A stretch of 37,823 bases of DNA, taken from assembly GCA_015488535.1 (NCBI GenBank), contig WFNP01000064.1:1-37823 (forward strand), written 5' to 3'. Position 1 is the first letter of the stretch. Each line of letters opens with the position of its first letter. The notes under the pieces are model-generated. The model made no database searches, was not told the origin of the DNA, and saw nothing but the letters and a program-made list of their open reading frames with translations. The DNA is from Nitratifractor sp. (GTDB taxonomy: Bacteria; Campylobacterota; Campylobacteria; Campylobacterales; Sulfurovaceae). Shown piece after piece: positions 1-2,269 of the stretch. The translations under genes were made by a program, and so were the position numbers.

Positions 1-353
1 ATATAGTATAAAATAAGAGTAGCAAATACAGTATCAGATTTTCTGTTTCCACTAAAGGGGATGATTATCATACCCTTTATACTGTATGACATTGGATTGT
101 CTATATCTTTGGAGTAAAGCTTTGATTTGTCTATATCTTTGACTATCACAGGTATATGCTCATATATGGCTTTTGTAAGCAAACTTTTGGTGTCATCTGA
201 AATAGCTTTTTCTGTGACTTTGTCTGTCAAATAGATAAGTGTTGAATTTTGTATATTATACAAAACCGGTAGATCTATATCATGTTTTGTGATTTTACTT
301 AGTCTTAGTTCTATATCAGATAGAAACTCTTTTAGTTTGATGTCATTTCTCAC
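1..353 (-). CDS. GAF-like domain protein, 3' part beyond left edge
   Basis: A reading frame stays open from GTG at 353 leftwards to the window edge, about 117 visible residues, so the C-terminus is missing. An AAGGA ribosome-binding site lies about ten bases upstream, overlapping the stop of the preceding gene (stop at 361-363), which supports the GTG start and co-transcription. The visible part begins with a helical stretch, then a strand around LIYLTD, then a segment reading KAIYEHIPVIVKDI and later KGMIIIPFSG. That layout resembles the middle of a GAF sensor domain, where a helix is followed by a 'put aside / conceal' strand and a 'restores access' strand. The GAF assignment is my pattern recognition and no ligand residues can be named. 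It is the last visible member of the minus-strand Roadblock cluster. Confidence 0.5.
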   Translation of the reverse strand, partial: MRNDIKLKEFLSDIELRLSKITKHDIDLPVLYNIQNSTLIYLTDKVTEKAISDDTKSLLTKAIYEHIPVIVKDIDKSKLYSKDIDNPMSYSIKGMIIIPFSGNRKSDTVFATLILYY

Positions 354-360
354 TGTTTTA

Positions 361-1026
361 CTAGTCCTTAAAGTGACTTATTATGTATTCGGCTTTTTTA
401 AATATATTGCCTATACTGCCGTTTTTTGATATTATCATACATACCCTTTGATTATTTATCGGATATATAATGATATTACACTCATCAAAAGATATAAATA
501 TATTATTTAGGTTTCCAAGTATTATATCTATTTTATCTCTATTGTCTTTTATAATTTTGTAAGATAACTGCAATGCCTGTAGTACTTTATCTTTGAAAAT
601 GATACTCTTATTATCTATAAACATCACATTATCATTTTCTGCTATGACTATACCTGAAATATCTTTATCTAGAAATCTGTTGCATTTTTCAAAAATTATA
701 TCAGAGGAGTGTTGGTTATTTTGTATGTTTTTTGATGCATTGTTATTTTTAGTAATTTCAGATGATAAAAAAGACTGCAGTTGATGAGATATTTTTGATA
801 TATTACCGCGGTTTCTTTTGTGTAGTTTGATAAACTTTGTTAATACTTTACTGTGCAATTCATCTATAGATTTACCATCTTTTAAGATATAATCATCTTT
901 TGTGAATACGGGATAATTTTCATTTCCATTATGAAATATATTTATTTCTATTTTGTTACTGTGTTGTTTTGTCTTTATACTAAATACTTCATCTCCTATC
1001 GCAATTTTGTTTAGAAGAGTACCCAT
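361..1026 (-). CDS. Roadblock/LC7-like protein with Asn-rich linker (hypothetical)
   Basis: This 221-residue protein has three parts. Residues 1-90 form a mixed beta/helical region I do not recognise. Residues about 91-108 are a low-complexity, Asn-rich linker (KNNNASKNIQNNQ). Residues about 109-221 look like a divergent Roadblock/LC7 fold: a helix, strands around GIVIAENDNVMFID, a long central helix, then paired strands ending with the SIGNIFKKAEYII helix. The ending matches in style the last strand and helix of the clear Roadblock protein at 1892-2269. There is no signal peptide or membrane segment, so it is probably cytoplasmic. A GGAG site precedes the ATG by a normal distance, and the gene follows the 110-aa gene by 28 bp. 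Roadblock proteins elsewhere act as dimeric scaffolds or regulators of small GTPases; that role here is only inference. Confidence 0.6.
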   Translation of the reverse strand: MGTLLNKIAIGDEVFSIKTKQHSNKIEINIFHNGNENYPVFTKDDYILKDGKSIDELHSKVLTKFIKLHKRNRGNISKISHQLQSFLSSEITKNNNASKNIQNNQHSSDIIFEKCNRFLDKDISGIVIAENDNVMFIDNKSIIFKDKVLQALQLSYKIIKDNRDKIDIILGNLNNIFISFDECNIIIYPINNQRVCMIISKNGSIGNIFKKAEYIISHFKD

Positions 1027-1054
1027 TTATATCTCCAATTTTCTATTCATAAAC

Positions 1055-1387
1055 TTATACTAATTTTAAAAGGCTAAAAATATTACCCATTCTGCTTTCA
1101 GAGTTGGTGACAATTGTGATTATTATATTGCTTTTTTCAACTCTTTTGATGAAAAGTCTCTCTTTTTCTTCTATATATGCAGTCTCTACATCCTGATTGC
1201 TAAATAATTTTACACTGTTTTTTATCAAATCAAGTTGCTCTTTTGTTGGTTTGGGGTTATTGAATGTATCATATGAAATTTTCATAGTATCAAAATCAAT
1301 AATGTATATAGCTATGACTCCATCTACTGATGAGAATTGATTCACAACTTTATCCATTAGTGAATTAATATCTATATCTTTGTCCAT
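1055..1387 (-). CDS. small Roadblock/LC7-like protein (hypothetical)
   Basis: At 110 residues this is the length of a single Roadblock/LC7 domain. It starts with a helix (SLMDKVVNQF), then a strand pair (GVIAIYIIDFDTMKISY), a helix (TKEQLDLIKNSVKLF), two strands (VETAYIEEKERLFIKRVE, NIIITIVTN) and a closing helix after SRMGNIF. This is the alpha-beta-beta-alpha-beta-beta-beta-alpha order of the family, but sequence conservation is weak. AAGGA precedes the ATG. It appears to be the first gene of a run 1387-1055, 1026-361, 353-edge. Upstream lie about 60 bp of unique sequence and then the inverted-repeat element at 1448-1606. It could be a paralogue of the 125-aa protein that has diverged to heterodimerise with it; that is speculation. 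Confidence 0.55.
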   Translation of the reverse strand: MDKDIDINSLMDKVVNQFSSVDGVIAIYIIDFDTMKISYDTFNNPKPTKEQLDLIKNSVKLFSNQDVETAYIEEKERLFIKRVEKSNIIITIVTNSESRMGNIFSLLKLV

Positions 1388-1412
1388 TTTTTATCCTTGC
1401 TATAATGCTGTG

Positions 1413-1422
1413 GCAATATTGC
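1413..1422. promoter_or_regulatory. GCAATATTGC palindrome upstream of the 110-aa gene
   Basis: A perfect 10-bp palindrome, extended to an imperfect GTGGCAATATTGCTAC, lies 26-35 bp upstream of the start of the 110-aa Roadblock-like gene. Its place between the inverted-repeat element and the gene would fit an operator, but no protein is known to bind it. It could be chance in AT-rich DNA. Confidence 0.2.
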
Positions 1423-1447
1423 TACAACTATGATATATATTTTGTTC

Positions 1448-1606
1448 TTACGCACATAAAACGATATTTGCTAATAATTTTTTATTTTCATTGTTTTGTT
1501 TAGATACTTATAGCTAAATCCCAGCATCTTAGATAATCAAGCAGGACTTTAGTCCCACTCTTTTGAGGCTTTAGCCCCCCATACTCAAACAAGATTATAT
1601 GTGTAA
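1448..1606. mobile_element. miniature inverted-repeat element, copy 1
   Basis: The 159-bp stretch starts with TTACGCACATAAAACGATATT and ends with TTATATGTGTAA, so its ends form inverted repeats of the type TTACGCATATAA. The left 20 bases match, in reverse complement, the right end of the element at 16274-16405 (...AATATCGTTTTATATGCGTAA). Inside, at 1541-1580, are two GC-rich hairpins (GCAGGACTTTAGTCCC and GAGGCTTTAGCCCC). It contains no coding frame. The right end stops two bases from the stop codon of the 67-aa gene. I interpret it as a non-autonomous, MITE- or REP/BIME-like element; the mobilising transposase is not in the window. Confidence 0.6.
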
Positions 1607-1608
1607 AG

Positions 1609-1812
1609 TTATTTACTCATATTCTTCAATAGTGTATTTACAAAATTGAGTAGCATTGGTGTAGCACCCTTTAAATCATCGTTTGTTACATCAAGTGTAG
1701 CCAATACATTCATCATATCTTTATAAAATTGAGCGGCATCTATTTCGCCTTTTTTCATCTGCTCTATATATTTGTGCATATCCTCTTTTGCTGCCATTAC
1801 CTGATCTCCCAT
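1609..1812 (-). CDS. 67-aa predicted helical protein of the Roadblock cluster
   Basis: This short acidic/basic protein reads as almost all helix (EDMHKYIEQMKKGEIDAAQFYKDMMNVL, then TPMLLNFVNTLLKNM). It has no signal peptide, cysteines or known motif, and I do not recognise it. Two starts are possible. The ATG at 1812 has GGGAG seven bases upstream, and an in-frame ATG five codons later (start of MAAKEDM) also has GGGAG upstream. I keep the longer form. It follows the 125-aa Roadblock gene on the same strand after 79 bp. A TATAAT on the minus strand at 1867-1872 suggests a promoter of its own. Its place between Roadblock genes suggests a small adaptor, which is inference. Confidence 0.6.
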   Translation of the reverse strand: MGDQVMAAKEDMHKYIEQMKKGEIDAAQFYKDMMNVLATLDVTNDDLKGATPMLLNFVNTLLKNMSK

Positions 1813-1866
1813 ATAATTACTCCCATAAAACTTTTAACAAATTCAATAAGACAATATTGACCGTCT

Positions 1867-1872
1867 ATTATA
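1867..1872 (-). promoter_or_regulatory. -10 box for the 67-aa gene
   Basis: TATAAT on the minus strand, 55 bases upstream of the start, framed by a short inverted repeat (CCGT...ACGG). Campylobacterota housekeeping promoters often show only a good -10 box. There is no clear -35. Confidence 0.35.
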
Positions 1873-1891
1873 CGGCACCTGAATTTTTCAA

Positions 1892-2269
1892 TTAGAATGA
1901 TTGTATATCTTTTACAAACTGCTTGAGAGCCACAATCAAAGCCCCCATTTTATACCCTTTTGGAGTGATGACAGCCAGTGCTACATCGTTACCCAAATCT
2001 TTGACAGCAATAAAGCCTTCGCTTCCGGATATAATCATTTCATTTAGAGAACCTTTTTCTGTATCCTCCAGTGTACCTGTGATTGTCGCCAAAAGCGAAG
2101 CGGTATTTGCGGCTACCACATCTGCATCTAGAGAGTTTTTGAAATAGCTTGCCATCTCCAATCCTTCAGCAGTGGCAATAATTGCACCCTCTAGTCCCAT
2201 TTTTTCTACAAACTCTTTTAACAACTCTTCACCTGATACGGTAAGTTTACCTACATCTACACTTCCCAT
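1892..2269 (-). CDS. Roadblock/LC7 domain protein
   Basis: A 125-residue protein with the Roadblock/LC7 pattern throughout: first helix LLKEFVEKMGLEG, strand pair AIIATAEGLEMASYF, central helix DVVAANTASLLATI, then strands NEMIISGSEGFIAVKDLG and VALAVITPKG, and closing helix MGALIVALKQFVKDI. Bacterial members include MglB, the GTPase-activating partner of the Ras-like polarity switch MglA, and many uncharacterised regulators. They usually dimerise through the central helices. No small GTPase gene is visible in this window, so its partner is unknown. A GGAG site precedes the ATG, and a TATAAT lies at 2313-2318. It is the first gene of the minus-strand cluster, divergent from hldD. Confidence 0.8.
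   Translation of the reverse strand: MGSVDVGKLTVSGEELLKEFVEKMGLEGAIIATAEGLEMASYFKNSLDADVVAANTASLLATITGTLEDTEKGSLNEMIISGSEGFIAVKDLGNDVALAVITPKGYKMGALIVALKQFVKDIQSF

Follow-up and report, generated by a model that had tools for sequence, protein, structure and literature searches.

Gene content of the locus

The DNA studied here, referred to as the window, is a stretch of 37,823 nucleotides from a Nitratifractor sp. (contig WFNP01000064.1), and its first 2269 bases carry an operon in which three proteins likely to have the Roadblock fold stand beside the predicted sensor end of a hybrid histidine kinase. An earlier note, made on the same DNA without database searches, had described five consecutive minus-strand genes at 1-2269, one of them coding for a clear Roadblock/LC7 protein. 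All five open reading frames were found there, and the product of gene 1 (1892-2269, minus strand, 125 amino acids (aa), canonical Roadblock/LC7) matches Pfam PF03259 at E 8e-13, while genes 2, 3, 4 and 5 have no Pfam hit over the cut-off. When the family profile of gene 1 was compared with the sequences of the PDB, archaeal Roadblocks, CvnB5 and MglC were matched. The four other genes, also on the minus strand, are gene 2 (1609-1812), which codes for a 67-aa protein that is helical by sequence, belongs to an unnamed family and always adjoins gene 1, at times in tandem copies; gene 3 (1055-1387), coding for a 110-aa protein with a putative divergent Roadblock fold; gene 4 (361-1026), whose 221-aa product combines an unassigned N-terminal beta/alpha domain with a probable C-terminal Roadblock fold (approximately residues 104-217); and gene 5 (3-353), of which 117 aa are present, corresponding to a GAF-like N-terminus. 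The contig itself starts at base 1, so that gene 5 is cut by the edge of the assembly and not biologically. Between genes 2 and 3, on the same strand, the spacer (1388-1608) contains predicted RNA stem-loops that are weak in the window copy and strong in most relatives. No family was found for gene 2 in Pfam, NCBIfam or PADLOC, and an Rfam search of the operon gave no match above chance.

Evidence for Roadblock folds in genes 1, 3 and 4

The presence of two divergent Roadblock-like proteins next to gene 1 had been a guess from sequence in the earlier note; it is now backed by AlphaFold models, structural matches and profile-profile comparisons with negative controls. The model of gene 3 (pLDDT, the predicted local distance difference test score, of 81, from a 3-sequence alignment) shows the element order alpha-beta-beta-alpha-beta-beta-beta-alpha, which is that of Roadblock proteins, and in the weaker model of gene 4 (pLDDT 71, 2 sequences) the C-terminal half has the same topology; for gene 1, the fold follows from homology to solved Roadblocks. 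When both models were compared with the PDB by Foldseek, the best 50 matches of each were all Roadblock proteins or Roadblock-containing complexes. The top match of gene 3 is MglC (7ct3, E 6.5e-6), followed by Ragulator chains and MglB, and MglC, MglB, Ragulator and archaeal Roadblocks lead the solved-structure matches of genes 3 and 4 taken together. With hhalign, the gene 3 family aligns to the gene 1 family at E 4e-5 and the C-terminal half of gene 4 to the gene 3 family at E 2e-5, both values being approximately 1e-4 with larger alignments, and the profiles of genes 3 and 4 gave E 0.2-0.5 against the unrelated 67-aa family used as a negative control. By sequence, genes 3 and 4 have diverged strongly (approximately 20% identity) and their sole Pfam hint is a weak MAPKK1_Int/LAMTOR3 match. 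Searching the PDB by sequence for genes 2, 3 and 4 gave no convincing match, gene 3 reaching an archaeal Roadblock at E 0.1. Each of these lines is modest, but since the models, the Foldseek matches and the profile-profile comparisons agree, it is likely that three Roadblock-fold proteins are encoded in the operon.

Gene 5 and the hybrid histidine kinase

A hidden Markov model (HMM) built only from the kinase N-termini of the other loci matches the 117 residues of the window at E 2e-16, and BLAST of gene 5 against kinases of the same genus gave E 3e-9 and 7e-9. Since both comparisons lead to the same family, gene 5 is, on homology, the sensor end of a soluble hybrid histidine kinase. In the relatives, the full-length kinases have 643-688 aa and usually start with a GAF-like N-terminal part bearing a D-N-P signature, which is followed by HisKA, HATPase_c, a degenerate middle and a receiver (Response_reg); the H box, the G boxes and the receiver are retained, no transmembrane segment is apparent, and the window copy ends after the GAF-like part. 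Three kinases have no GAF-like part, namely that of G387 and both of a second family in which the operon occurs. The earlier note had described a GAF-like protein with a possible role in input; the domain and the input role are upheld, while a free-standing protein is not, as the corresponding part in relatives is the N-terminal end of a hybrid kinase. The probable output partner is this hybrid histidine kinase, which the note had not foreseen.

The genome of the window encodes elsewhere a further member of this kinase family, full-length and with the GAF part (C22, L047:7231-9333), which adjoins the der GTPase gene and lies away from any Roadblock gene. It was considered as the missing half of gene 5 and rejected, being a paralogue with its own N-terminus. 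In one relative (L008:53-825), a response regulator and an Hpt-like protein, the latter assigned by motif only and without a Pfam hit, are divergent from the operon and are candidate downstream phosphorelay partners.

Conservation and gene order

The operon was found at 18 loci, which come from 14 genomes of the window's family, one separate contig of a metagenome-assembled genome (MAG) and three genomes of a second family. Genes 1 and 2, whose products are the best conserved of the operon, are together in all of them, and among 299 genomes of the order, the 7 that have gene 1 are precisely those that have gene 2. The full five-gene order is seen in 13 loci, counting the truncated window copy as well as L008 and G333, where gene 4 reads in two frames. 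Close relatives of the window locus are those of a Sulfurovum MAG (L007), Sulfurovum belonging to the Sulfurovaceae in the Campylobacterota, and of a 'Helicobacteraceae' MAG (L008), so that the host of the window probably belongs to the Sulfurovaceae as well. Among the 17 loci that are readable far enough for the kinase (L007/G361 ends at a contig edge), 16 have a hybrid kinase beside the operon, which in 14 cases ends the operon in the same direction and in two loci of the second family faces it. A variant is found in G373 (L085:3032-9224), where genes 3 and 4 are missing; after a duplicated Roadblock/67-aa pair come a GAF-like protein, a protein of 560 aa in which Pfam detects no domain, and the hybrid kinase, and two proteins of the locus besides the kinase are counted as GAF-type.

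The gene set therefore stays together in other genomes, as the reading of the earlier note requires, with its order retained, so that the arrangement is not due to chance. Wide conservation in the Campylobacterota, for which that note had proposed a test, did not hold: the distribution is patchy, gene 2 being found in 14 of the 175 genomes of the window's family (spanning 3 of its 11 genera) and the operon in 5 of the 397 genomes of a phylum-wide sample. Between members of the operon, the pairwise protein distances are correlated (r 0.53-0.90, permutation p <=0.001), with r 0.76 between gene 1 and the kinase and r 0.90 between gene 4 and the kinase (permutation p 0.0005), and these sequence distances are consistent with inheritance as a unit.

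Stem-loops were predicted in the spacer between genes 2 and 3 in 14/14 family loci tested (the window copy, L007, L008, L026-L028, L032, L033, L080-L083, L086 and L087); their sequences are unrelated and they are strong in most loci. The z values range from -1.7 to -8.5, the window copy being among the weakest (-1.7), and in an equal-length comparison the mean z is -4.8 for this spacer vs -0.8 for the one separating genes 1 and 2. The stem-loops are most simply read as a sign of uneven expression, more of genes 1 and 2 being made than of the kinase, but this is not backed by codon usage, the codon adaptation of genes 1-2 (0.59-0.71) not differing from the window median (0.62). An attenuator or a stabiliser of the mRNA end is also possible.

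Search for a GTPase partner

In agreement with the earlier note, which had seen no GTPase in the cluster, no small Ras-like GTPase is encoded in any of the loci read. In the genome of the window, rated 100% complete, the Arf and Roc profiles, which gave matches in the control genomes of Thermus and Deinobacterium, find only frames of the size of IF-2 and Der, and the Ras profile finds nothing. Elsewhere in the genome, a Ras-type GTPase is carried by 7 of the 14 operon-bearing genomes of the family vs 32 of the 161 others (Fisher p 0.017), an association confined to the genus g5 (7/9 vs 19/69, p 0.005), these p values ignoring shared ancestry. In the genus of the window the GTPase is found in 0/4 genomes with the operon vs 4/9 without it, and the window's own genome and G009 (99% complete) bear the operon without such a GTPase.

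The Ras-like GTPases of relatives (158-188 aa) were considered as the missing partner and rejected, because of their neighbourhood. In the six loci inspected, the GTPase is accompanied by coiled-coil, OmpA and PAS-GGDEF proteins, as in the known group 1 Rup system, composed of a coiled coil, OmpA, Rup and GGDEF or a kinase (Wuichet and Sogaard-Andersen; PMC4316618), and Rup is reported never to be coupled to MglB (PMC4316618). These Sulfurovaceae loci are L092:5751-11698, which has a tandem of two GTPase/PAS-GGDEF pairs, and L065, L066, L093, L094 and L096. Unrelated to the operon, G012 encodes a ROCO-like protein of 623 aa with a Roc GTPase domain (L095:6469-8340). Since no GTPase is found in the loci or in the genome of the window, and since those inspected in relatives sit in a Rup locus of their own, a GTPase is not an obligate partner of the operon, while it may help in trans in some species.

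A second, Roadblock-like module in the same genome

The genome of the window carries a second module (C23, L034:8251-10194), adjoining a homoserine O-acetyltransferase-like gene, in which a paralogue of gene 3 is associated with a 117-aa LAMTOR5-like protein and a 352-aa GAF-receiver protein. The latter has the same GAF family as the operon kinase, with the receiver directly after it and without a kinase domain. The LAMTOR5 match of the 117-aa protein is weak and its profile comparison with gene 1 was not significant, so that it is termed Roadblock-like only. Relatives of the pair are found in two other genera. In G333 (L086:6398-10673), a six-gene version of the operon has a LAMTOR5-like protein of the 117-aa type directly after the kinase, an arrangement that joins the main operon and the second module.

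Proposed function and alternative explanations

Computation shows directly the make-up of the gene set and its linkage, the folds and how the kinase is built. On this basis we favor, with somewhat better than even confidence, a cluster that would act as a GTPase-free Roadblock complex regulating or scaffolding a phosphorelay hybrid kinase, because the kinase lies beside nearly all readable loci, the protein distances correlate, the folds are of the Roadblock type and the second module also pairs Roadblock relatives with a GAF-receiver protein. In the proposed mechanism, the products of genes 1, 3 and 4 and the 67-aa protein would assemble into a homo- or heteromeric platform in the cytoplasm, which would bind the soluble hybrid kinase encoded by gene 5 and set its activity or its location. 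The kinase would sense a signal via the N-terminal GAF-like domain, autophosphorylate on the histidine of HisKA and transfer the phosphate to its own receiver domain, from where it could pass to an Hpt protein and a response regulator encoded elsewhere. No GTPase would be needed for this, the Roadblock assembly acting on the kinase as MglC binds RomR or as conservon partners act on CvnA. The idea of the earlier note that several Roadblock variants take part in one multi-subunit signalling assembly is probably right. The stronger claim, that the multi-Roadblock assembly with its dedicated 67-aa protein directly controls the kinase, a GTPase having never been needed or having been dispensed with, and that Roadblocks are general kinase-regulating platforms and not GTPase cofactors, is made more tentatively, and we put it slightly short of even.

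Several observations weigh against a GTPase-free kinase complex. Genes 3 and 4 are modest cases by sequence alone, with hhalign probabilities of 50-77% and scores below the Pfam cut-off; the G189 locus has genes 1-4 and no kinase nearby; vertical descent alone also yields correlated distances; a GTPase that the Ras, Arf and Roc profiles do not cover could have escaped detection; and the window kinase is cut after 117 aa, its remainder being found at no contig end of the genome's assembly.

Other explanations were weighed against the same data. The Roadblock complex could be a spatial scaffold or a polarity landmark, holding the kinase, or else its receiver, at a particular place in the cell and not tuning catalysis, in agreement with the MglC match of gene 3, with a kinase that has no membrane anchor and with the recruitment of MglC by RomR, a receiver protein (PMC7949163). 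In the loci read, however, the operon has no visible neighbors with a role in motility, pili or polarity, and this explanation appears unlikely. We consider it similarly improbable that the Roadblocks regulate a small GTPase in trans, of the Rup type or undetected, with the kinase up- or downstream, in the manner of a conservon whose genes are divided between two places. Such a scheme would fit the classical role of Roadblock proteins as regulators of NTPases, as well as the higher frequency of Ras-type GTPases in the operon-bearing genomes of the family, but the p values of that association leave out common descent, two nearly complete or complete genomes bear the operon without the GTPase, the genus of the window shows the opposite tendency, and the six inspected GTPase loci have the gene set of a Rup system reported to be uncoupled from MglB. 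Finally, an ordinary two-component operon with unrelated small accessory genes, in which the Roadblock folds of genes 3 and 4 would be over-read, draws on the low identity of these two proteins and on the lack of a Pfam hit over the cut-off; it seems very improbable in view of the Roadblock proteins that top the structure searches of both, of the gene order retained across two families and of the negative controls with the 67-aa profile.

The operon is apparently a conserved gene set that has not been described, as the earlier note had proposed: no published description of a Roadblock-histidine kinase operon was found, including in the literature on Sulfurovum and Campylobacterota, in a search that covered few subscription journals. 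Roadblock proteins are nearly always discussed as GTPase regulators, and our data suggest that they can act on a kinase instead. In two families of bacteria, three Roadblock folds are here tied to a defined enzyme amenable to purification and assay, which makes a GTPase-independent action of Roadblocks on kinases directly testable. When 328 orphan MglB-type proteins, without an MglA partner, were listed in 2014, none had been characterised (PMC4316618).

Comparison with known systems

An anti-phage defence system was considered and rejected, as PADLOC has no match on genes 1-5 and gives generic ATPase/receiver matches only, on the kinase of a relative. Roadblock proteins are related to parts of the dynein motor and of the Ragulator that activates mTOR, and the earlier note had suggested a Ragulator-like arrangement. 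The likeness to Ragulator/LAMTOR holds by fold only, Roadblock heteromers being combined there with a helical non-Roadblock subunit, and by analogy the 67-aa helical protein could be a candidate for a p18-like role. The data do not carry the suggestion further: the divergent Roadblock domains resemble LAMTOR and Mgl folds to a similar degree, and no Rag-type GTPase or equivalent of p18/LAMTOR1 was identified; moreover, Ragulator is a eukaryotic platform for Rag GTPases on lysosomes, whereas the operon has no Rag and no membrane anchor. The group 1 Rup system shares the bacterial family and a tie to signalling outputs with the operon, but it occupies a separate locus, is absent from the genome of the window and is reported to be uncoupled from MglB-type Roadblocks.

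Closer parallels are found in the MglB/MglC-RomR proteins of Myxococcus, where several Roadblock paralogues coexist and to whose MglC gene 3 is structurally nearest. MglC, itself a Roadblock, has lost the ability to bind MglA; it binds MglB and RomR, and is recruited by the latter, a receiver-domain protein (PMC7949163). The Mgl modules differ by being centred on the GTPase MglA and by not forming an operon with a histidine kinase, and no cognate MglA was detected in the genome of the window with the Arf, Roc and Ras profiles.

The conservons (AGPS: CvnA-D, with the GAF accessory protein CvnF) have in common with the operon the association of a histidine kinase with a Roadblock, a small protein of no assigned function and a GAF input, kinase and Roadblock being in one operon in both cases. 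They have features of their own, that is, the Ras-like GTPase CvnD, a membrane kinase without a receiver, a single Roadblock and CvnC, and are found only in Actinomycetota, whereas the window operon has three probable Roadblock folds and a hybrid kinase that is soluble and includes a receiver, with neither a GTPase nor a CvnC-type match, the 67-aa and 221-aa proteins having no Pfam or NCBIfam family. The operon is not a conservon, since the defining GTPase was searched for and is absent from every locus read and from the genome of the window. By analogy, it may work in a conservon-like manner, bringing a Roadblock, a kinase and a GAF input together, the conservon kinase CvnA8 being stimulated by its GAF accessory protein (PMC13343842), and if this is true, conservon-like signalling would extend beyond the Actinomycetota into the Campylobacterota.

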